From: Salibacterium aidingense DSM 18341
GTDB lineage: Bacteria > Bacillota > Bacilli > Bacillales > Marinococcaceae
Direction of reading: 5' to 3'
Assembly: GCF_000429685.1 (NCBI RefSeq)
Contig: NZ_AUCI01000031.1
Span: 1-40,152 of the forward strand
DNA length: 40,152 bases
Positions 10,052-20,925 of the stretch are shown in pieces. The notes below the pieces were generated by a model. The model was not told where the DNA came from, did no database searches, and saw only the letters and a list, made by a program, of their open reading frames with translations. Numbering within the stretch: position 1 is the first letter of the stretch; the number at the start of each line of letters is the position of its first letter. The translations under genes were made by a program, and so were the position numbers.

Positions 10052-10189
10052 TCCTCCACCTCCAGTCTTTTTCCTTTCACTTTATTCCATACAGGGCCCC
10101 CGTGAGCATGTCCGTTTTCAGAAGAAGGGCATGCACGACAGACGCCTAGAAAACATAAGGTGAAAGGAATACTATTTTGGAGGTTTTTT

Positions 10190-11095
10190 ATGGCACCTCA
10201 TGATTATCCCTTGTACCCTAATTACGGTAAGATCACTCAATATGAAGAAGTTCCCATAACTGTGCCGGAGCAGCGTCAATACCGTCAGCCTGGCTTGGAA
10301 AAGCTCATGAACCCGCAGCCGATTGTGGAAAACCCCAACTATCAAGGAAGCGGAAAATTAACTGGAAAGACAGCGCTTATTACGGGGGGAGACAGCGGTA
10401 TTGGCGCCGCTGCCGCCATCGCCTTTGCCAAAGAAGGGGCGGATGTAGCCATTTCCTATTTAGATGAGCAGGACGATGCAGAGCGGACAAAAAGGCGTAT
10501 TGAAGAACTGGGACAGCGCTGCCTTTTACTGCCTGGAGATGTCAGAGAAAAACAGCAGTGTGTTCACCTGGTAGAAGAAACCGTTGCCGTTTTCGGCAAG
10601 CTTGATATTCTCTGTAACCACGTCGGCATTCAGTTCCAGCAGTTAAGCCTGCTTGATATTACCGATGAACAATTTGATGATACGTTTAAAGTGAACATAT
10701 ACTCTCATTTTTACACGACCAGAGCTGCTCTTCCCCATTTACACGCCGGCAGTTCAATAATTAATACCGCTTCGGTAGTAGCTTATGACGGGAATAAACA
10801 ATTAATGGATTATTCAGCGACAAAAGGAGCAAATGTTGGTTTTACAAGAGCTTTGGCCAATAACCTGGTTGACAAAGGGATACGGGTCAACGCCGTAGCA
10901 CCGGGCCGTATTTGGACGCCGCTCATTCCGGCAAGTTTTTCAGCGGACGAAGTGACGTTGGCTGGGAATCCCATGGAGCGGCAGGGACAGCCTTTCGAAC
11001 TGGCCCCCACCTACGTGTACCTGGCTTCGGATGACTCCCGGTTTGTGACTGGTCAGACCCTCCACGTAAACGGCGGCCAATGGACGTCTTCCTAG
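10190..11095 (+). CDS. SDR-family oxidoreductase, general-stress YhdF/YhxC type
   Basis: An NAD(P)-dependent short-chain dehydrogenase of 301 residues. It has the ~55-residue N-terminal extension (YPNYGKI...[12 protein letters not shown]) typical of the YhdF/YhxC/YdaD group, several of which are general stress proteins in B. subtilis. The Rossmann motif TGGDSGIG is at residues 65-72 and the catalytic Tyr208xxxLys212 (YSATK) is intact. The usual NNAG segment reads CNHVG. The start at 10190 is fixed by GGAGG at 10179-10183; an in-frame ATG at 10160 lacks one. The stop codon overlaps that of the convergent DUF3231 gene. The substrate is unknown. Confidence 0.87.
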
Positions 11096-12105
11096 CGCTT
11101 GTTCCTGGCTAATTCTTCCCTGTCCTTTGTTCCCGGGGGCTGCTCCAGCCAATGGTGCTTGATCATAATGTCCACGCCGCTTTTCGCATATTTCGCTACC
11201 TCCAAAGAAAGACGTTCATAATTAAGTGCCAAATCCGTCCGCAGACTGGAGGAAGCAGCCATAGCATAATTCCCCATCCCGGCAGAGGTTAAGAGGGACA
11301 TATGGAACATCATTAATTTATCCGAGAACGTCTTTGTCGTCGAATCGCTTGCGCTGAGATCGGGCAGTCTCGGCGTAACAATATCATTATCATCCAGCAA
11401 AGAGGTGAAAACCTTGATATGCTTATTTGAAATTTCTTTTCCCCGCAGCATATATTCCTGAACCTCTTTCATCGATGCCGTCTGGGCAAACGCAAGAGAA
11501 AGCTTCGCGCCTACTGAATTGGTCAGAATATTCATATACAAATAGGCGATTTCCACGGCATTCAAGGGGCGTTTGCTGCTGAATGGATTCATTCCGCTTA
11601 AATACTTTTTACTTTCGATGTAATCCGTTTCTTTTGGTACATTAATATACGGATGGGTAGCGTGAATTCCCTGGGACACCGCAACGTCGGTAGAATGATT
11701 ATACAGTGCAGAAGTATCTGTCAGCAGCTGGGTATAGAATCGTCTTATATCCTCTCTTTTGCTCATTCCGACAAACCCGCCGTATGTCATCATCCCTACT
11801 TTTGACATATGATTCACATAGGTCAGGCAGAATATGTCTGAAAAGAGCCAGGGAGCTTCCATGTTTACATCTTCCATGGAAAACCCGCGCGGCACGGCAA
11901 ACTGTTCATCGTCAAAAAGGCTGAGCAGGTGATCCATATTCCTGCTTGAAATATCATAGGCCTCTTTTGTAATCGTTTTTATCTCTGTATCCTGCAAATG
12001 TTTTAACATAAATTCCAGGATCACTTTGGACATGCTGTCATTCATATAGGTCGTCCACAAGCATCCGATTTCAGCAGATGTTAAATTGGTTTTTGGTTCC
12101 TTCAT
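11092..12105 (-). CDS. DUF3231 tandem-unit protein (paralogue 1)
   Basis: A 337-residue protein built of two related ~165-residue units, each predicted as a helical bundle of ferritin-like type. Unit 1 has [17 protein letters not shown] and [20 protein letters not shown]; unit 2 has [19 protein letters not shown] and [19 protein letters not shown]. The C-terminus ([13 protein letters not shown]) resembles the end of CotF-type spore coat proteins. ATG start with AGGAGGG seven bases upstream. It is the last gene of the minus-strand run that begins with gerAA, ends overlapping the convergent SDR gene, and is followed by no separate terminator. The molecular function of DUF3231 is unknown; a spore role is inferred from context. 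Confidence 0.85.
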
Positions 12106-12148
12106 ATCATTGCCCTCCTGATGTGATATGTAGAAGCCCTGTTCAGGC

Positions 12149-12631
12149 TTACGTTTTTATTTTCACTAACACCCATCGAATAATCATCCCTGCCGCTAAC
12201 CCTACAGGTAAAAAAAGAATAGGGAGCCATACCGGACCTATTTTATATCCAAATAATGTAAGATAAGGAGAATAAATTAAGCCTATCGTTACAAAATAGG
12301 CGGAAAAAGCAAGAGGCAAATACGAAAAAGCTTTCGTGCCGCCGCCTGCTTCTCTGTACGCATCCCATATCGCGAAAAAATAAATACAAGGATAAAACAT
12401 CAGCCATTGATAGTCGGTATGTTCAATAGCCTCCTGTATTCTTCCATGAAAGCTCAAGACAATAACATAATTAAAATTGCCTAATACATTAACCAGCACC
12501 TCTAAAAACACTAACAATATTCCCTTGGTATATTTTCCGAGGATTAAATGGGCGAACCCGGGAAGAGCAATGCTCCATAACAGCATTTCCAATTTTTTGC
12601 TTTGTTTATTAATTTCCATCTGCATAGACAT
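12149..12631 (-). CDS. Small multi-pass membrane protein in the ger/DUF3231 run
   Basis: A 160-residue protein with about five hydrophobic segments and a short charged N-terminus. The opening SIALPGFAHLILGKYTKGILLVFLE resembles small TM2-like proteins, and WLMFYPCIYFFAIWDAYREAGG forms a second block. I cannot assign a named family. It lies between two DUF3231 genes with gaps of 63 and 43 bases on the same strand. The first ATG (12631) has AGG almost touching it; the ATG at 12625 is better spaced and may be the true start. No function is assigned; position suggests a membrane partner of the germination receptor or of DUF3231. Confidence 0.7.
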   Translation of the reverse strand: MSMQMEINKQSKKLEMLLWSIALPGFAHLILGKYTKGILLVFLEVLVNVLGNFNYVIVLSFHGRIQEAIEHTDYQWLMFYPCIYFFAIWDAYREAGGGTKAFSYLPLAFSAYFVTIGLIYSPYLTLFGYKIGPVWLPILFLPVGLAAGMIIRWVLVKIKT

Positions 12632-12694
12632 TACCTGTTTCGCTTAGTTTTGATGTGAAGTTATGTCTATTTTTCTGCATAGACACATATCCTT

Positions 12695-13708
12695 TCATTT
12701 ATCAGACTTTATAAGTTCCCGTCGGTCCACCATGCGGGGAGGCTCTTCCAGCCACCCGTGGTTTATCATAATATTGACTCCGTCCTCGGAAAATAAGCCG
12801 GCTTCACCGATAAGGCGTGCATAATGAGAAGCCAGGTCTCTTCTAATATTGGTAGAGATACTCAACCCGTAGAACCCTATGCCCAGCGTACTCATCGCTG
12901 TAACATGGTACAGCATTAATTTCTCAGAAAACGGCCCTTCTTTGGCCGAAGTCGTAACCATAGATTCCGACCCCATTGGAACCGGTATCTGATTCTCCTC
13001 CAAAACTGAACGAAATATGCTTATATGCTTTTTTGCCATTTCGATTCCTCTGACAATATGGTCTTTTACTTCCTTTGATCGTGCGGCCTGACCAAATCCC
13101 GTTAGTGTGGTAACCCCTAAATCATTACGCTGGATATTATTAAACAGATGAGTGATCTCTACCGCTGTCAGCGGTCTGCGTTCGCCAAACCAGCCGGTTA
13201 AAAAGCTTTGTTTTTTGACAAAATCCACTTCGTCCAGCGTGGGGATCGAGGGAGGATAAAGATATAAACCCTTTTCCTGCAACAGGGTTTTTGTTCTTTG
13301 ATACAGCTCATTATAGTGGTGGAATCCATTGGTAAAGAACTGATATATATCTTCACGCACTGATAAACTGATCGCTGTCGAAAATGAAAACATCCCTACG
13401 TTGCTAAGTTGAAAGACATGCTGGAGAAAATAGGGATCCGTATATAACTTCGGAGCATGAATGTTGACATCTTCCTCCGTCATTCCAATAGGAACCGGTT
13501 TGTTCTCCTGATTAAACAAAGTGGCTATTTCATTTAAATGATCGGAGGTTATGGACAATGTCTTCTGCAGCATGGATGATATTTCTTCATCCTCAGCTTT
13601 TTCATGAAAGTATTTCAGCATAGCGCTTGAGGTACTCGCGTTCATATAAACTGACCATAACTGGGAGTGTTCCGCTGTCGTCATCTGGCTTTTTCTCATT
13701 ACTTCCAT
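12695..13708 (-). CDS. DUF3231 tandem-unit protein (paralogue 2)
   Basis: A 337-residue paralogue of the protein encoded at 11092-12105, with the same two-unit layout. Unit 1 has TTAEHSQLWSVYMNAST and SDHLNEIATLFNQENKPVPIGM; unit 2 has LTAVEITHLFNNIQRND and AKKHISIFRSVLEENQIPVPMG. It ends NIMINHGWLEEPP, again like CotF proteins. ATG start with GGGAGGAG six bases away. It follows gerAB by 59 bases without a terminator, so it is probably co-transcribed with the receptor genes. Identity between the paralogues is clear but far from complete, so the duplication is old. Confidence 0.85.
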   Translation of the reverse strand: MEVMRKSQMTTAEHSQLWSVYMNASTSSAMLKYFHEKAEDEEISSMLQKTLSITSDHLNEIATLFNQENKPVPIGMTEEDVNIHAPKLYTDPYFLQHVFQLSNVGMFSFSTAISLSVREDIYQFFTNGFHHYNELYQRTKTLLQEKGLYLYPPSIPTLDEVDFVKKQSFLTGWFGERRPLTAVEITHLFNNIQRNDLGVTTLTGFGQAARSKEVKDHIVRGIEMAKKHISIFRSVLEENQIPVPMGSESMVTTSAKEGPFSEKLMLYHVTAMSTLGIGFYGLSISTNIRRDLASHYARLIGEAGLFSEDGVNIMINHGWLEEPPRMVDRRELIKSDK

Positions 13709-13767
13709 GAAAGGCTCCTCCCTAACAACTTACTTGCCATTAGTCTGCCGAAAATTCTAAGTGTTAT

Positions 13768-14868
13768 TCACAAACGCTGCTTCTTTCTGTTTTTTACCAC
13801 TGCAATGAGAAGCAGCAAAGCAGGAATGATAACCTGAAAGGGTAAATGCATATACAGGGGTACAAACCGGATTCCTTCCTGAATGTGCTCGGAATAACTG
13901 CTTGCGATTGTCATAGAGGAAAATAATACCACCAGCCCCAGCGGATAGATAAGTCTAGAAAGACCATTTACTTTAAACAAATCTGCTGTTCCTATAAGTG
14001 CTGCATAAAAATAAAGTCCTATCTTAAAAAAACCTCCCGTGATTAAAGCAATCATAAAAAATACGTCCAGTCGTTCCAGAAATTCGGCAACTTCAATCGC
14101 CTGTATCGTATTCAGGAGAGGAAACTGGGAGCGTGAGACAAGTTCATAACTCAGGACTGAAATGTTCACCACCATGGTAATAACAATATTCAGACCACTT
14201 AACGCGATCCCCGTCAACCCTGCTGCTTTTACATGTTTCGGTCTGTTTAGATACGGGAAAATCATCGTAAATACAACAACTTCTCCAAAAGGGATATACC
14301 ATGTTTCCGTGACCACTGTCTTAATGACTGGACCAATTCCCTCTTCCAGCACCGGCTGCAGGTTATTTAACTCAATTAAGCCGGATACTACGACCAATAC
14401 AAAACCGATCACTGCCAAAAAATATAGCAGCACAAAAAGAAGCTCCCCTGTTCGGGCCAGAACTTCGATTCCTTTATGTACGGTATAAACTATGCAAAAA
14501 AGAAGCAGGGCATTTATAATAAACAGCGGCGTTTCATCATACGCAAACGTCACCAGCATTTCCCCAAAATCCCGAAGCACCCTGGCAGCAATATATAAAA
14601 AATAAATGAGATATAGAAAAGCAAGAAGTTTACCCAAAACTTTTCCGGTGATCTCCTGCATATACGTTGTCGGCAGGATATCCGGGTAATAGTTATAAAG
14701 AGCCTGGTATATCAGAAACAAACATAAACCCCCACCCATTCCCAATAATATAGCGAGCCATGCATCCTTCTTTGCACTTAAGCCAAGAGGGATTAACAGA
14801 GCGCTTCCAAGCTCAAACAGAAAGATGAGAATAAACAACTGACCAGGAGTTATTTTTGCTTTTTCCAC
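13768..14868 (-). CDS. gerAB: Spore germination receptor B subunit (GerAB type)
   Basis: A 366-residue endospore inner-membrane permease-like subunit of the amino acid/polyamine/organocation fold, with about ten hydrophobic helices. It opens KITPGQLFILIFLFELGSALLIPLG, characteristic of the family, and keeps WYIPFGEVVVFTMIFPYLN in the middle. It forms the germinant-binding part of the GerA-type receptor. The start is GTG, with GGAGG at the expected distance in the AAAGGAGGGGGG run. It is the third gene of the order A-C-B, which differs from the A-B-C order of the B. subtilis gerA operon but is known in other GerA-type operons. The germinant cannot be predicted. Confidence 0.9.
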   Translation of the reverse strand: MEKAKITPGQLFILIFLFELGSALLIPLGLSAKKDAWLAILLGMGGGLCLFLIYQALYNYYPDILPTTYMQEITGKVLGKLLAFLYLIYFLYIAARVLRDFGEMLVTFAYDETPLFIINALLLFCIVYTVHKGIEVLARTGELLFVLLYFLAVIGFVLVVVSGLIELNNLQPVLEEGIGPVIKTVVTETWYIPFGEVVVFTMIFPYLNRPKHVKAAGLTGIALSGLNIVITMVVNISVLSYELVSRSQFPLLNTIQAIEVAEFLERLDVFFMIALITGGFFKIGLYFYAALIGTADLFKVNGLSRLIYPLGLVVLFSSMTIASSYSEHIQEGIRFVPLYMHLPFQVIIPALLLLIAVVKNRKKQRL

Positions 14869-14902
14869 CTGGGGACCCCCCTCCTTTCTTTTTCCTCGTT
14901 TC

Positions 14903-16120
14903 TTAGAAATCCATAAGAAACGGTTTATTTCTCAATCCTGTCCGGCGGATGAAAGCATGGACCTTAACGTCTACCTCTACTTCAGGAAAATATTCGTCAT
15001 TCCAATTCTCCTTCATTTCCTTCCACGCTTCGGAGTCCGCCCGGTGGACGGCCTCCCCAAAACCTAATACATCCGTTTGCAGCTCCTGGGTTTTTTTAAT
15101 AGAAGACAGTAAATTCTCCTTAATCTCTTTTTCCACCAGACCTTCTAAATCTTTTAAAACATGTGGTTTTCGTAAATCAATCGGCACGGCCGTCTCCCCT
15201 ATATCCCCTTCAGCCGACACTTCCACGGAAATCTTCGGCTGGTTGTTTTTCACCTGGGCGGACACACTTGTTTTCTGCCGGATCACTTCGTAAACAATCG
15301 CTTCTTTATTTTGCTTCCAATCAAGCGAGACCCCAGTTTCTTTTATTTTGTCCAGCACCCACAAAATCCCTTTTGATGTGTCCCCATTAACGGTGTGTAT
15401 CAATTTTCCGTCTTTAAAAAGAGCCAGGCCGGAAGCCTGTAGCCGGAATGGAGGTTGTGTCTCCTGGATGCCTTCAATCGCTTCTCCCTTTTCTTCGTCT
15501 CCTGGAGCACGGAAACAACTAATGACCGGGGAGGTTCCTGGTGAAATCAATTTTTGCAGTAAACCCCTTGTCTCCAGGTTAATATTCTCGCCCCAGATTC
15601 TTTCGGTAGACCTTAATGTTTTAATAACTTTGTTTGCTGGAATCTTATCAATCGACGTGAGTGTTTTAATAATCTCTTCGGCTTTTGCATCCTGGGCTAC
15701 TACTACTTTTGTCGTTGTACGAAATTCGTTGTCCCGTTCCAGGGCATCAAATATTTCTTGAATTCCTCTTTCTTCCGCCAATTTTTCCCCGATCACGAGC
15801 AGGTTGGTATGAGCATAATAAAGTTCCCGGGACACTTTCTTGGAAATACGCCTTTGGGCTTCTGTCATATTGTATCCATGTTCGGTATAGGTGGAAACAG
15901 GAGGGCTCTCCGACCCTCCCGTATTCTGTATCCCTTCCCCTGCCACGTTTCCGGGGTTTATCACTTGAATGGTGTTCACAAATTCCCCGTCCTCGGACAA
16001 GTCAATACCGATCGCAGAAACAAGTGCTAAATCCGGCAGCTCCTGATTGCTCCAGCAGCCAGAGAGGATGGAAATACTCAGGAGCATACTGAAAAAACAA
16101 AGAAGCCCTTTAATCATCAT
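14903..16120 (-). CDS. gerAC: Spore germination receptor C subunit, lipoprotein (GerAC type)
   Basis: A 405-residue lipoprotein of the spore inner membrane. The signal peptide ends in lipobox LSGC with Cys22, followed directly by WSNQELPDLALVSAIGID, the hallmark of GerAC. The rest is the Ger(x)C domain, with the block YYAHTNLLVIGE near the middle. ATG start with AAAGGTGA upstream. The start overlaps the gerAA stop by 11 bases, implying coupled translation. The protein is needed for receptor function in the A/B/C complex. Length is normal. Confidence 0.92.
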   Translation of the reverse strand: MMIKGLLCFFSMLLSISILSGCWSNQELPDLALVSAIGIDLSEDGEFVNTIQVINPGNVAGEGIQNTGGSESPPVSTYTEHGYNMTEAQRRISKKVSRELYYAHTNLLVIGEKLAEERGIQEIFDALERDNEFRTTTKVVVAQDAKAEEIIKTLTSIDKIPANKVIKTLRSTERIWGENINLETRGLLQKLISPGTSPVISCFRAPGDEEKGEAIEGIQETQPPFRLQASGLALFKDGKLIHTVNGDTSKGILWVLDKIKETGVSLDWKQNKEAIVYEVIRQKTSVSAQVKNNQPKISVEVSAEGDIGETAVPIDLRKPHVLKDLEGLVEKEIKENLLSSIKKTQELQTDVLGFGEAVHRADSEAWKEMKENWNDEYFPEVEVDVKVHAFIRRTGLRNKPFLMDF

Positions 16121-17726
16121 TCAGGTCACCTTTCTTCATCTGCTGTTTTTTTATATTCCGTGTTTCAGGCGGGGTTGGCTTCTGGCCGCTTCCTTCTCGC
16201 TCATTCTTTGTAGTAAACAGTCTTGGTCTCTCCTTGTCTCCCCACCTTGGCAGACGAATAACCGAATCTCCAAAATCAGCCGGGATAAAGGGAGCAAGCG
16301 GTGCCATATATGGAATGCCAAACGATCGTAAACTGCACAAATGGGCAATAATGACAATAAAGGACAAGATCAACCCGTAAAATCCGAACGAAGCAGCCAC
16401 AATCATCAGCCCAAACCGTATGAGACGGGCAGCTATCGCCATGGAATAAGACGGGGTTGTAAAACTTGCAATTGCGGTAATCGCCACAATAATAACCATG
16501 GCCGGTGAGACAATCCCCGCCTGTACAGCGGCCTGGCCGATGACAAGAGCTCCTACAATCGAAACGGTCTGTCCAACTGCTTGAGGCATCCGAATTCCGG
16601 CTTCCCGTAAAATTTCAAACGTGATTTCCATAAGAAACGCTTCGATGACTGCCGGAAAGGGAACCGCTTCCCGCTGGGCCGATAGTACGACCAACAACTG
16701 AGTGGGGATCATTTCCTGGTGAAAGGTCGTAGCAGCAACATAGGTTGCCGGCGCATACAGAGATATTAAAAAAACCATAATTCTCATGAAACGAAGGGAG
16801 GACGCAATATACGCCCGGCTGTAATAATCATCAACCGATTGAAAAAATTGGATAAAAATAGAGGGGACATGCAGAACAAACGGTGTTCCATCTACAAAAA
16901 TTGCGATTCTGCCTTCCAGCAGATTTCCAGCGACAGCATCAGGGCGTTCCGTAAAATGGATCGTCGGAAAAGGGGAGGAGGGCTGGTCCTCAATAAGTTC
17001 TTCAATATAACCGGTTTCTAAAATGCCGTCCATATTAATATTCTCCAACCGTTCGCGCAGCTCATTGAGATTTTTTTCGCTTGCTATCCCTTCGATATAC
17101 ATAATCTCTACGTCTGTTTTCGTTTTTTCACCAAGCTGCAGGGACTCGACCCACAGATTTGGATTTTTAATTCTGCGGCGTACCAGGGAGGTATTCGTGC
17201 GTAGAGACTCTGTAAATCCTTCCCGCGGCCCGCGGATGGAAATCTCCGTAGGAGGCTCTTGAATAGAACGTCTTTCTCCTCCCTTTGTACTGGCGCTCAG
17301 TCCCTGCATGACCCCATCAACAAGAATGATAGTCAGACCTGACATCAGGGATTCATATAACTCCTTCCAGTTGTTCACCCTGGTTACTTCCCCAAGCGGA
17401 ACGATTTTTTCAGCAATCGTCTCCAGAACATCCCGTTCTGTCCCTTCTGTTTCGATAGCAGGGTCATCCATGAGCGATTCCAGGAGAAAATCATGGATGG
17501 TGCGGTTATCCACGATTCCTTCAACAAAAATAACACCAATCTGCTTGTTTTCCTGCGCCGTTGTCATTTCCCGGATAACTATATCTGAACTGTTGCCGGT
17601 CCTTTGTTTTATTTTGCTTAGATTGCTGTCTAACGAAGTATATAATTCTTCCGCCGGCCCAGCATTCTGGACAGCATTTGTATATTTTCTTTTTGATTTT
17701 AAAAATTTCCTGAACCTGTAAGACAT
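16110..17726 (-). CDS. gerAA: Spore germination receptor A subunit (GerAA type)
   Basis: A 538-residue spore inner-membrane protein. A hydrophilic N-terminal domain of ~290 residues includes QIGVIFVEGIVDNRTI and IAIFVDGTPFVLHVPSIFIQFFQS, followed by membrane helices (RIMVFLISLYAPATYVAATTF, FEILREAGIRMPQAVGQTVSIVGALVIGQAAV) and a polar C-terminal tail. These are the conserved GerA landmarks. The A subunit is proposed to form an ion channel in the receptor. Ribosome binding upstream of the ATG at 17726 is weak (GAAAG only), so the level may be low or the start may be internal. A sigma-G-like promoter candidate lies at 17760-17789. It heads the minus-strand operon. Confidence 0.92.
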   Translation of the reverse strand: MSYRFRKFLKSKRKYTNAVQNAGPAEELYTSLDSNLSKIKQRTGNSSDIVIREMTTAQENKQIGVIFVEGIVDNRTIHDFLLESLMDDPAIETEGTERDVLETIAEKIVPLGEVTRVNNWKELYESLMSGLTIILVDGVMQGLSASTKGGERRSIQEPPTEISIRGPREGFTESLRTNTSLVRRRIKNPNLWVESLQLGEKTKTDVEIMYIEGIASEKNLNELRERLENINMDGILETGYIEELIEDQPSSPFPTIHFTERPDAVAGNLLEGRIAIFVDGTPFVLHVPSIFIQFFQSVDDYYSRAYIASSLRFMRIMVFLISLYAPATYVAATTFHQEMIPTQLLVVLSAQREAVPFPAVIEAFLMEITFEILREAGIRMPQAVGQTVSIVGALVIGQAAVQAGIVSPAMVIIVAITAIASFTTPSYSMAIAARLIRFGLMIVAASFGFYGLILSFIVIIAHLCSLRSFGIPYMAPLAPFIPADFGDSVIRLPRWGDKERPRLFTTKNEREGSGQKPTPPETRNIKKQQMKKGDLNDD

Positions 17727-17759
17727 GACAGCATCAGTGCTTTCTTTGTAATTTATTGT

Positions 17760-17789
17760 TAGTTTTAGCGTTCGCTCTTTATTTATACA
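17760..17789 (-). promoter_or_regulatory. Candidate sigma-G promoter for the ger operon
   Basis: On the minus strand TGTATA (17789-17784) and AAAACTA (17766-17760) are separated by 17 bp. The first matches the forespore sigma-G -35 element; the second agrees at 5 of 7 positions with CATACTA. The start point would give a ~27-base leader to gerAA. This is inference from a degenerate consensus. Confidence 0.35.
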
Positions 17790-17833
17790 TAACCCTTCAT
17801 GGGTTGGATAAAAATAAGAGCGGAGATGATAAT

Positions 17834-18085
17834 ATGAAAATAGCAGGAATTACCATACTGATGATGGGGCTGGTAATGGGGTTTTCCATACTACTGGATA
17901 TGTTGATGGGTTTTGATATGAGAACCGCTTTAACAAACGCTATAAACCCGTTCCGGGTGATGCATATCATTGAAATTTTTCTTTCGTCTCTTTTTGTTAT
18001 CCTGTTTATCACAGAAACGATCTATTCGTTTATAAAAAAAAGAAAAAGCAGGCAGCAGCCGTCTGGTATGAATAAAGATGAGTGA
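17834..18085 (+). CDS. Small two-helix membrane protein, divergent from gerAA
   Basis: An 83-residue protein with two hydrophobic helices (about residues 3-25 and 46-66) and a basic tail (KKRKSRQQ). ATG at 17834 is chosen because GGAG lies 7 bases before it; a longer frame back to a TTG at 17756 lacks a binding site. It is followed 16 bases later by the single-unit DUF3231 gene, so the two form a plus-strand operon diverging from gerAA. I do not recognise the family. Its role in germination is inferred from position only. Confidence 0.7.
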   Translation: MKIAGITILMMGLVMGFSILLDMLMGFDMRTALTNAINPFRVMHIIEIFLSSLFVILFITETIYSFIKKRKSRQQPSGMNKDE

Positions 18086-18101
18086 AGGAAGGTGAAAATC
18101 G

Positions 18102-18656
18102 TTGGGAAATCCTTTTGAAGCCGCGTGGAACGTATTAAAAACATCGATGGATAATGCCAATGAAACAAAAGGGCAGCTGCACGTGATTGAGGTCGGGGAC
18201 TGCTGGAAGTACCTTACCTTAGTAGAAGAATTTATACGTTATGAAGAAAGCGGATTAAATACCACGACAGACGACGAAGTAAGAGAAATGCTGACAGATA
18301 TCATCAAACTATGTGAATCTCATGTGAAGAAGTTAAGTAAGTTTATGAAAGAAGAGGGGCTTCCCCTTCCGGATGTAACTTCTTCCAAACCAAACTCCGA
18401 ACCAAATGAAATCCCGTTAGGTGTTAAACTGACCGACGATGAAATTACGAACGGAGTAGCCTTTAAACTGGTTAGCAGCTTGAAAGCCTGTGCAAAAGGA
18501 CAGGCCGATGCAGTTCGTAATGACATCGGCATGATATGGCTGGAATTTTATATCGATTGGGTCACGATAGGGGCAAACTTAAAATCATTGATGAAAAAAC
18601 GCGGGTGGTTAAAAGTCCCTCCGTATTACTATCCGCCTGGCTCCCCTAAAAAATAA
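18102..18656 (+). CDS. Single-unit DUF3231 protein (paralogue 3)
   Basis: A 184-residue protein matching one unit of the DUF3231 family. The core reads HVIEVGDCWKYLTLVEEF, then CESHVKKLSKFMKEEGLPLPDV, with a second half beginning LTDDEITNGVAFKLVSSLKAC. The C-terminus GWLKVPPYYYPPGSPKK echoes the GWLEEPP ends of the longer paralogues. The start is TTG with GGAAGG nine bases away; no ATG is available. It sits downstream of the small membrane gene and ends at a hairpin shared with the convergent paralogue 4. The Pro/Tyr tail and location beside gerAA support a spore link (inference). Confidence 0.82.
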   Translation: MGNPFEAAWNVLKTSMDNANETKGQLHVIEVGDCWKYLTLVEEFIRYEESGLNTTTDDEVREMLTDIIKLCESHVKKLSKFMKEEGLPLPDVTSSKPNSEPNEIPLGVKLTDDEITNGVAFKLVSSLKACAKGQADAVRNDIGMIWLEFYIDWVTIGANLKSLMKKRGWLKVPPYYYPPGSPKK

Positions 18657-18664
18657 ATAATAAT

Positions 18665-18693
18665 GCTCCTTCCTGCATCGAAGCGGAAGGAGC
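18665..18693. terminator. Bidirectional hairpin between DUF3231 genes
   Basis: GCTCCTTCC (18665-18673) pairs with GGAAGGAGC (18685-18693). A T-rich run follows on the minus strand; it sits between two convergent DUF3231 genes. Confidence 0.6.
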
Positions 18694-18732
18694 CATTCAC
18701 CTGGACAGGACCGTCATCCTATCGTTTATCCG

Positions 18733-19743
18733 TCATCCTTTCCTTTTGGTTATTTTCGTTCTGTCCTCCATTTGGGGCGGTTCCTCTGTCCATCCGTGTT
18801 CAATCATCAGATCTCCTCCATCATTGGCAAAGTCATAAACATCTTTAGCTGTCATGAACATTCTCAGCGGCAGGTCTTTTCTAAGACTGAAGGAAGTGCC
18901 TAAAGCACTGCTGCCTAAGCCAAAACTGCTTAATAAGGAAGTATTATACATCATCAGTTTATCGGAAAAAGGAGACAAGGTGGAATTGGTAACCAATCCG
19001 GATGAGGTGGAAGGAACATTGACATCACTCTCTAATAAGACATTACTAAATTTTTGAACAATAGTTTTAGATAATTCTTTCCCCCGGAAAAAATATTCTC
19101 GAACGTCTTTTTTATGAGCCACTTGGGCAAAGCCAGTCATTAGTTTCATCCCCGTTACATTCGATTCAATGCCTTGATATAAATAGGCCACTTCCACTGA
19201 GTTTAACGTTCTCTTATTCCCAAGTAATTTAAATCCTGAACGATAATCTTTATTTTCCGCAAACTCTGCATGAACCGGCATCGTAACCTCTGGAGATCTT
19301 GGGAGAACTCCTTTTTCCAGCAAATACTGGGTTGTTTTTACACAGTATTCTTCCGCAAATGCCGAACAGTCTTTATATAACTTCATAATATCCTTACGAT
19401 AACTCATCGACATGTGTAAGGCGTGAAGCCCCGTGGCAATTTTCATCATCATTCTCAAGTACATGATATGATATATGTCATCAAACAGGGGAGGAGATTT
19501 GAGATTGACATCATTTTCGGTGAAGCCAACCGGGACGGCCGCCCCCTCTTGTTTGAAAATATCCGTGATTTCAGTGATGAAATTACATTCCCTGTCGTGA
19601 AAGGGTTGAAGTATTTCTTGAGCTTCCGGCTCCTGGTTTTTGGATAGAAAATTTTCCACAACTCTTGCCATCATTGTTTTCTTTTGATAAATGACCCAAA
19701 GGGTTGCAAGTTCGGACGAGGCTAACGGTGCCTGGTATGCCAC
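18733..19743 (-). CDS. DUF3231 tandem-unit protein (paralogue 4)
   Basis: A 336-residue two-unit DUF3231 protein. Unit 1 has LASSELATLWVIYQKKT and FITEITDIFKQEGAAVPVGF; unit 2 has LNSVEVAYLYQGIESNVTG and IVQKFSNVLLESDVNVP. It ends DLMIEHGWTEEPPQMEDR, matching paralogues 1 and 2. The start is GTG; AAGGAAGG is about 12 bases upstream, which is long. It is transcribed alone, convergent with paralogue 3 and divergent from the frameshifted membrane gene. The His seen in unit 2 of paralogues 1-3 is replaced by Val here (SKTIVQKF), so any metal site may be altered. Confidence 0.84.
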   Translation of the reverse strand: MAYQAPLASSELATLWVIYQKKTMMARVVENFLSKNQEPEAQEILQPFHDRECNFITEITDIFKQEGAAVPVGFTENDVNLKSPPLFDDIYHIMYLRMMMKIATGLHALHMSMSYRKDIMKLYKDCSAFAEEYCVKTTQYLLEKGVLPRSPEVTMPVHAEFAENKDYRSGFKLLGNKRTLNSVEVAYLYQGIESNVTGMKLMTGFAQVAHKKDVREYFFRGKELSKTIVQKFSNVLLESDVNVPSTSSGLVTNSTLSPFSDKLMMYNTSLLSSFGLGSSALGTSFSLRKDLPLRMFMTAKDVYDFANDGGDLMIEHGWTEEPPQMEDRTKITKRKG

Positions 19744-19954
19744 TATTTGAACATTCCTTCCTTGGTAAGGTTCGGACTTTCCTCTGCCTGATAAAAGACC
19801 GATTATATTCGATTATTTTGCCCAGGCTCTTCCTTTTCATACTCTTTCTGAAGATTTCTAAAAGAAAGCGGGAATGAACTCGGCTCTTTAACCTACTATC
19901 ATGCATATTATTTTACTGAAAACAGATAATAACAGCTAAAAAGGGGATCGCTGA

Positions 19955-20925
19955 ATGGCCTTTGCTGTATTTTTCTTAGCTTCCCGGCTTCTTAATACAT
20001 TATTTATAAGAATGGAAAAAACATTATCTTTAACAGAAAATACTTTTGTATTTATGATTATTCTTGTCATTAATATTAACTGGGATTGGATCGTGTATGA
20101 AGAAATGGATCGAGTGAATATTACAGAGGACGGTCTGAACTATACTGCGTTTCTTCTTTTCCGCAGTATTATTATTCCTATGGTTTTACCGTTTCCTTAA
20201 ACCTCTTACATAAATCAAGTAAGTTATGGATATATGTTATATCTCTTGCTGCCTTGCTTTTTCTCGCCTGCCTCTCCACTTCATTTCAGATCACAGAGCA
20301 CACAAAGTGGAACCTCGGTTATGATGCTGTATACTACACCTTCCTGGCCGGGGCTGCTTATTATTCCTTCTGCATCTATTCAGAAGACTGCCGTATCCGA
20401 GGTGAACAGCTCGTGAATTTGTGGGAAAGCTTTGACAAAAATGAAATAAGTATCTTTATTATGATGGCCGCGGCTTACACTGCTTTTTTTCTGCTATCTA
20501 AAAAATTCTCCCGCCCTGTCACCCTGTTATTCCTATTATGGGGATATACGATTGGGGTTGTATTTGATTTCACTATCGGCGGTGGTTTTATTGATTTTTA
20601 TAAGCTGAATGATACCCAGAACTACGAGTTGTTTGATTTCTTATATTATTCCCTGTTTGCTCCAGCTGCTTTCTTTTTTGTATATGTGTATGAGTTACTC
20701 CAGATCAAAAAATCTTTCATATGGTATATTATTGGCTGGGCCCTGCTTGGAACAGGAATGCAGTGGCCTTTTGCCTGGCTGGGGATTATTGATTTTCAAA
20801 ATGGCTACCAGCCTGTCTATTCTTTTCCCGTCTTTCTGACAACTCTGACGGTAACCGGTTTTTATTACGAAAGGGTACGTTCAACATTCGAGGTCCCCCC
20901 TTCCAAGGAAGAACATGGATCATAA
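19955..20925 (+). pseudogene. Multi-pass membrane protein gene broken by one frameshift
   Basis: Two adjoining frames give one coherent protein. The first (from ATG 19955, with AAGGGG before it) runs to RSIIIPMVLPFP then TAA at 20198. The second continues as LNLLHKSSKLWIYVISLAAL and ends at 20925. Adding a single T to the TT at about 20197 joins them as PFPLNLLHK, giving ~323 residues with about ten hydrophobic segments. Later blocks include DFYKLNDTQNYELFDFLYYS and WALLGTGMQWPF. The family is not named here; it resembles Bacillaceae membrane proteins of unknown function. It could be a true mutation, an assembly error or programmed slippage. Confidence 0.7.

Follow-up and report, generated by a model that had tools for sequence, protein, structure and literature searches.

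An operon for a GerA-type germination receptor in Salibacterium aidingense DSM 18341 is continued by genes for two further protein families, DUF3231 and a membrane protein family of 160 amino acids (aa) designated here mem160. The locus lies on contig NZ_AUCI01000031.1, of which positions 1 to 40,152 were analysed (the window, 40,152 nucleotides). The receptor and its D subunit are of known kinds, and what is new is the set of undescribed accessory proteins attached to them, DUF3231 and mem160. The two families form a recurring pair, and mem160 is the strongest new element of the locus, as a family that pairs with DUF3231 and also joins receptor operons alone. From this gene linkage, which is what is observed directly, we infer that mem160 and the soluble, ferritin-like DUF3231 proteins may modulate GerA-type receptors in the spore, a reading to which we give about an even chance of being correct.

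Gene organization of the receptor locus

The features of the locus and the evidence for each are as follows.

11092 to 12105, minus strand: tandem DUF3231 protein of 337 aa, final gene of the run (PF11553, 311 bits)
12149 to 12631, minus strand: mem160, multi-pass membrane protein of 160 aa, from a family without a Pfam model (alignments, structural model)
12695 to 13708, minus strand: tandem DUF3231 protein of 337 aa, immediately behind gerAB (PF11553, 299 bits; structural model; match to 2RBD)
13768 to 14868, minus strand: GerAB-type subunit, Spore_permease (PF03845, 288.5 bits)
14903 to 16120, minus strand: GerAC-type lipoprotein subunit (PF05504, with PF25198 as N-terminal domain; lipobox LSGC read in the translation)
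16110 to 17726, minus strand: GerAA-type subunit (PF03323, 643.4 bits; 72% identity in Salibacterium salarium)
17830 to 17858, minus strand: sigma-G-like promoter for gerAA (GTATG at 17858-17854, 17 nt, CATATTA at 17836-17830), overlapping the start of the D gene
17834 to 18085, plus strand: GerKD-like D subunit, 83 aa, two predicted transmembrane helices (28% identity to a Bacillus spizizenii gene; ATG at 17834 behind GGAG)
18102 to 18656, plus strand: single-domain DUF3231 protein, 184 aa (PF11553, 82.5 bits; Coat_F 24.2 bits, below the cut-off)
18733 to 19743, minus strand: tandem DUF3231 protein, 336 aa, convergent with the single-domain one (PF11553, 262.5 bits)

The minus-strand run thus begins with gerAA-gerAC-gerAB and continues with two tandem DUF3231 genes that flank mem160, and the Pfam scan confirms every named domain. 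The gerAA and gerAC genes overlap by 11 bp, and the subsequent gaps measure 34, 59, 63 and 43 bp, with a maximum of 63. In the three gaps behind gerAB the terminator scan found no terminator-like site on the minus strand; a plus-strand site, 12134-12150, lies inside the gap between mem160 and DUF3231. Across the region the scan returned 26 terminator-like sites versus 14.4 in shuffled sequences. Domains, coordinates and terminator scan therefore agree with a preliminary description of this DNA, which had read these six genes as one run in a single direction, with short gaps and no terminator.

Divergently from gerAA stands the D gene, and the single-domain DUF3231 gene starts 16 bp after it. 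This pair had been described before, and stands, except for the 109-aa start assigned to the small membrane protein: the ATG at 17834, behind GGAG, is the better start and gives 83 aa, and the alternative TTG at 17756 is less likely. A fourth DUF3231 gene, also described before, is present; to this can be added that it is the third tandem gene and runs on the minus strand toward the single-domain one.

The DUF3231-mem160 pair and its linkage to germination receptors

Of the first 100 mem160 loci, 31 have a DUF3231 gene as the immediate upstream neighbour of mem160 and on its strand, with a gap of 4-13 bp in 22 of them; in 3 of the 100 the immediate downstream neighbour is DUF3231. When the neighbours in these loci were clustered, DUF3231 was the commonest family, with 43 genes at 38 loci (the runner-up had 30 genes at 25 loci). 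The full set comprises the 128 loci with all matches of E-value (E) <1e-35, that is, 126 together with the window and locus L025; weaker matches, many of them partial and within frames of ~260 aa, were left out. Because the search model was derived from 14 ger-linked members, its ranking favours members of that kind. Within 1 kb of mem160, DUF3231 is present at 40 of the 128 loci, from 24 genera.

A ger subunit gene is found within 8 kb of mem160 at 26 of the 128 loci (15 of 52 genera): at 14 of the 40 loci with DUF3231 and at 12 of the 88 without. The binomial P for 26 of 128, uncorrected for kinship, is 8e-12 at a background of 4%. The background of 2-4% is an estimate from 5-10 gerA genes per ~4 Mb genome, at most 7 having been scored in a genome. 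On a FastTree phylogeny of the 128 mem160 rows, ger linkage changes 15 times, and at least 6 of these changes are forced by well-supported branches.

The arrangement with respect to the receptor varies. The module is placed after gerAB in the window, L025 and L125, and in L125 the D gene is followed by a single DUF3231 gene in the order seen in the window. In L048, L071, L075, L076, L082, L084 and L100 it lies near an inverted gerAB and on its strand, in some of them with a D-like gene between. In L136 it is divergent to a receptor of A-B-C order, its DUF3231 and mem160 being 54% and 66% identical to those of the window. Without DUF3231, mem160 forms the last gene of an AA-AB-AC operon in L138 (gap 23 bp) and L157 (gap 102 bp; of the subunits there, C alone was also checked with Pfam), and the first gene of another such operon in L226 (gap 19 bp). 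It is chiefly because such linkage recurs with different receptors that function rather than inheritance is inferred from it.

Counted across genomes, as the preliminary description had suggested, gerA genes with a DUF3231 neighbour are enriched. The 18 genomes of the family that match DUF3231 supplied 91 gerA genes to this test, and 12 of these lie within 5 kb of a DUF3231 gene, where random placement gives a mean of 1.05 and a maximum of 6 in 5000 runs; the 12 are not independent, since six of them are a gerK-like locus in near relatives (the window, L024-L027 and L125). For this test 150 of 186 DUF3231 matches were used, and 24 gerA rows (fragments or <470 bits) were omitted. A control with Coat_F, another spore family, in the same 29 genomes gave 0 genes within 10 kb of gerA versus ~1.7 expected, a small number that is not significant alone; three pairs lie within 20 kb. 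The receptor itself was compared with the 80 gerAA loci closest to it among named genomes; 13 of these loci span <21 kb because contigs end. Within the stretches covered, 15 of the 80 carry DUF3231 and 13 carry mem160, and all 13 also carry DUF3231.

Two observations were made in passing. In several genomes of a genus denoted g32 (L234, L236, L237, L240), a gerA operon has a diverged mem160 ~3-4 kb away, without DUF3231. The genome of locus L082 (NZ_VTQV01000006.1, titled Bacillus subtilis DE0224) has several tandem DUF3231 genes, and its species label looks doubtful because such genes are missing from the B. spizizenii genome.

Restriction of DUF3231 to genomes with GerA in the samples

DUF3231 (E 1e-8 or better) was found in 42 genomes of a class-wide sample of 121. 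GerA is present in 93 of the 121, and these include all 42; among the 28 genomes that lack GerA there is no match (Fisher P 1.6e-6). When samples of the family and the order were merged, DUF3231 was present in 171 of 212 genomes with GerA and in none of the 9 without (P 9e-7). Because the genomes lacking GerA come from few lineages, both P values overstate independence.

Predicted structures of DUF3231 and mem160

The four DUF3231 proteins of the window score 82.5-311 bits on PF11553, for which the gathering cut-off is 29.6. The model of a tandem protein, built from an alignment of 43 sequences, consists of two four-helix bundles (predicted local distance difference test score, pLDDT, 92.5; predicted template modelling score, pTM, 0.89). 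Its best match in the PDB is 2RBD, a 'putative spore coat protein (BH2358)' (E 5e-5; TM score 0.88 by target), and weaker fold matches include Dps, ferritins and manganese catalase, from E 0.028 upward. The model thus bears out the earlier suggestion that DUF3231 proteins are ferritin-like. The di-iron ligand set (E and ExxH) is not among the residues conserved in at least 60% of the 43 tandem sequences, in a check made at the sequence level, and an iron-storage role was dismissed for lack of this conserved ligand set. No hydrophobic segment was found in the tandem protein. A phage origin was likewise dismissed, as PHROGs gave no match for four proteins.

The kinship of DUF3231 with Coat_F is, to judge by the profiles, distant. 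A comparison of the two profiles gives a probability of 72%. The single-domain protein of the window scores 24.2 bits on Coat_F (PF07875) over residues 52-86, below the cut-off of 25.7, and for the tandem proteins of the window the Pfam scan lists no Coat_F match. From the other side, B. spizizenii has a true Coat_F protein (86.2 bits), whose score on DUF3231 is 22.7 bits, below the cut-off of 29.6. A C-terminal HGWLEEPP pattern had been proposed to be shared with CotF-type proteins; in its favour, the sub-threshold match of the Coat_F protein to DUF3231 ends at GWY, but the window's single-domain protein matches Coat_F elsewhere and the tandem proteins not at all. As the sole tie to CotF the pattern is only partly borne out.

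The mem160 model has a pLDDT of 93.7, and five hydrophobic segments are seen by a crude count (alignments of 14 and 34 sequences). Compared with the PDB, the model gave no fold match at E 0.001 (28 matches, the best with E 1.0), and no match was obtained by sequence. Of 34 family members scanned with Pfam, 18 had sub-threshold matches to DUF5683 and three to DUF6677, the only ones returned. Across the order, relatives at E 1e-6, distant ones included, occur in 121 of 199 genomes.

Promoter sites and a possible role in the coat

The sigma-G-like site before gerAA in the window agrees with the consensus at 12 of 12 positions, and full matches occur in 0-1% of shuffled upstream regions. For the 45 DUF3231 genes scanned, full sigma-K matches were found upstream of 4% versus 1% in shuffled sequences and near-full matches in 16% versus 23%, and sigma-E sites were not enriched. 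The scan is weak, because near-perfect sigma-G sites are seen before just 21% of the gerAA set itself, versus 4% in shuffled sequences.

These numbers bear on the idea that DUF3231 is a CotF-like component of the coat or outer layers made in the mother cell, with mem160 as its anchor in the outer forespore membrane. The title of 2RBD and the distant similarity to Coat_F point in that direction, as do the full sigma-K matches, which at n=45 are too few to judge. We nevertheless consider this unlikely: none of the four proteins meets the Coat_F cut-off, neither near-full sigma-K nor sigma-E sites are enriched, and the genes in the window follow gerAB without a minus-strand terminator-like site, behind a sigma-G-like site.

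Proposed role and the points that weigh against it

In the role that we favour, DUF3231 and mem160 would be made in the forespore together with the receptor, beside which mem160 would lie in the inner membrane of the spore. If made there, DUF3231, which lacks a hydrophobic segment, would act on the core side, where mem160 may anchor it. Together they might help the GerA-type channel to assemble, to cluster or to gate, in the manner of FigP; by this analogy, mem160 would share the membrane with the channel as its partner. The part of DUF3231 would be structural or in docking, and not that of an iron-storing ferritin. Of the earlier suggestion that DUF3231 proteins are spore proteins working with this receptor, the ferritin-like fold, the restriction to GerA-bearing genomes and the enrichment near ger genes hold up; what had been missed is the part of mem160 as the strongest new element and the known type of the D subunit. 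A bolder version can be formulated, in which several receptor types across Bacillales would use mem160 interchangeably as a hitherto unnoticed subunit or obligate partner of their nutrient-gated channels, and tandem DUF3231 would be the soluble core-side effector of gating or clustering, making a second FigP-like system with a ferritin-fold regulator; this version appears rather doubtful to us.

Several results weigh against a role at the receptor. Near-full sigma-G sites precede 18% of the 45 DUF3231 genes versus 10% in shuffled sequences, which is not convincing, and the sporulation-promoter check proposed in the preliminary description thus does not show forespore expression. Half of the DUF3231-near gerA genes, as given above, are one locus in relatives. 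Of the five intact gerA genes in the draft genome of S. aidingense, only one has DUF3231 nearby, the other four being on contigs apart from the other DUF3231 genes. At 102 of the 128 mem160 loci there is no ger gene within 8 kb, and on two Priestia plasmids there are three stretches with DUF3231 genes or pairs but no ger gene. These last two findings, and the wide variation of both families in copy number between genomes, favour instead a general spore pair with its own role, such as membrane or core protection, whose proximity to ger genes would come from shared regulation, joint movement and clustering of accessory spore genes. Such a pair is possible, though we lean away from it: mem160 stands inside ger operons in L138, L157 and L226, and the Coat_F control, small as it is and not significant alone, shows no comparable proximity to gerA within 10 kb.

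A further point against involvement with the receptor comes from Bacillus. The only strong DUF3231 gene in B. spizizenii is single-domain and stands beside two SMR-type genes and clpP, a setting that fits yvdQ. In the excerpt of a study of B. subtilis, yvdQ is downregulated under mercury and tabled with the envelope-stress genes liaIH, pbpE and pspA (PMC12563154); the growth phase is not given in that excerpt. DUF3231 might therefore be a vegetative envelope-stress protein like yvdQ, with an incidental link to the spore. This we regard as very improbable, as DUF3231 was found only in genomes with GerA in all three samples, and yvdQ is single-domain whereas the proteins here are tandem.

Receptor type and comparison with known systems

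The A, B and C subunits are encoded in one same-strand operon, and their PF03323, PF03845 and PF05504 matches are far over the cut-offs. The nearest gerAA genes are those of Salibacterium salarium (72% identity), S. halotolerans (68%) and Alteribacillus (63-68%). Among the 80 nearest loci, the order A-C-B on one strand, which we take to be that of gerK, is seen in 70; gerAB is inverted in 8, and a clear gerAB is missing in 2. A D-like gene is nearby in 63 of the 80, divergent and upstream in 48 and downstream in 15. The layout of the B. spizizenii locus L093 is the same as that of the window, and the gene that stands divergent to the gerK-like operon of that species shares 28% identity with the window's D subunit over 72 aa. 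The D subunit of the window has two hydrophobic segments and 83 aa, relatives mostly having 73-90 aa. By sequence, the receptor is a complete one of GerA type, with AA as channel, AB as sensor and AC as lipoprotein, and is assigned to the GerK type, with a divergent GerKD-like D subunit, because the A-C-B layout and the D gene are shared with B. spizizenii and most of the 80 loci. D subunits are described, in the excerpt available of PMC4661057, as small proteins with two transmembrane segments that adjoin the receptor operon and modulate their receptors. The divergent small membrane protein, previously counted as part of an undescribed system, is therefore of a known kind.

Compared with GerK/GerKD of Bacillus, which has the same A-C-B order and a D gene that is mostly divergent, the window adds DUF3231-mem160-DUF3231 after gerAB and a single-domain DUF3231 gene after the D gene. 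On pBM700 of Priestia megaterium (L245, NC_014023.1), the last gerAB-type gene is followed, at a distance of 4-7 kb, by two DUF3231 genes; in contrast to the window they do not form one operon with it, and no mem160 was found in the 21-kb stretch. The receptor there is presumably GerU. One of the two genes is shorter (a 208-aa frame) and one is of tandem length. BH2358 (2RBD) and YvdQ belong to the DUF3231 family like the window's proteins, and 2RBD also has the same fold, but both are single-domain whereas the main members in the window are tandem. With Coat_F/CotF the similarity is distant from both sides and below the cut-offs.

GerA-type receptors are nutrient-gated channels, and the GerAA-like SpoVAF needs a partner protein, FigP, according to excerpts of PMC11841064 and PMC11837508. 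The likeness of the present locus to SpoVAF/FigP of B. subtilis would lie in a GerAA-like channel with a partner protein. It differs in that those excerpts mention no DUF3231 and that mem160 has no Pfam match above the cut-offs; mem160 is likened to FigP (YqhR) by its possible role. Excerpts of reviews describe the assembly of GerA-type receptors and the relay of the signal as unsettled. As a candidate for a missing receptor partner, mem160 can be tested directly, and such a role would give DUF3231 its first function. Work on B. subtilis may have missed the module, given that the related B. spizizenii has one strong DUF3231 gene of the single-domain kind.

In the literature collection searched, papers outside it not being covered, neither DUF3231 nor PF11553 is named and nothing was found on the module; the matches listed for 2RBD are unrelated by title. 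In the rows and regions examined, DUF3231 genes on plasmids are annotated as 'DUF3231 family protein' and mem160 genes mostly as 'hypothetical protein'.

Other observations

Elsewhere in the S. aidingense genome, C2:196783-197069 holds a remnant of gerAA in two short pieces with one stop. Further DUF3231 frames stand at contig starts (C36:46-531 and C47:10-489) and as a short open frame (C33:28835-29320), two with equal scores, as if repeated DUF3231 genes had broken the assembly.

The feature had been taken to extend to 20925 and so takes in a further membrane open reading frame, 20254-20925, without a Pfam match; it has a weak hemolysin III-type score of 25.3 bits (cut-off 172). At the other end, the last DUF3231 gene and a convergent gene for a short-chain dehydrogenase (10160-11095) share 4 bp at their 3' ends (11092-11095).

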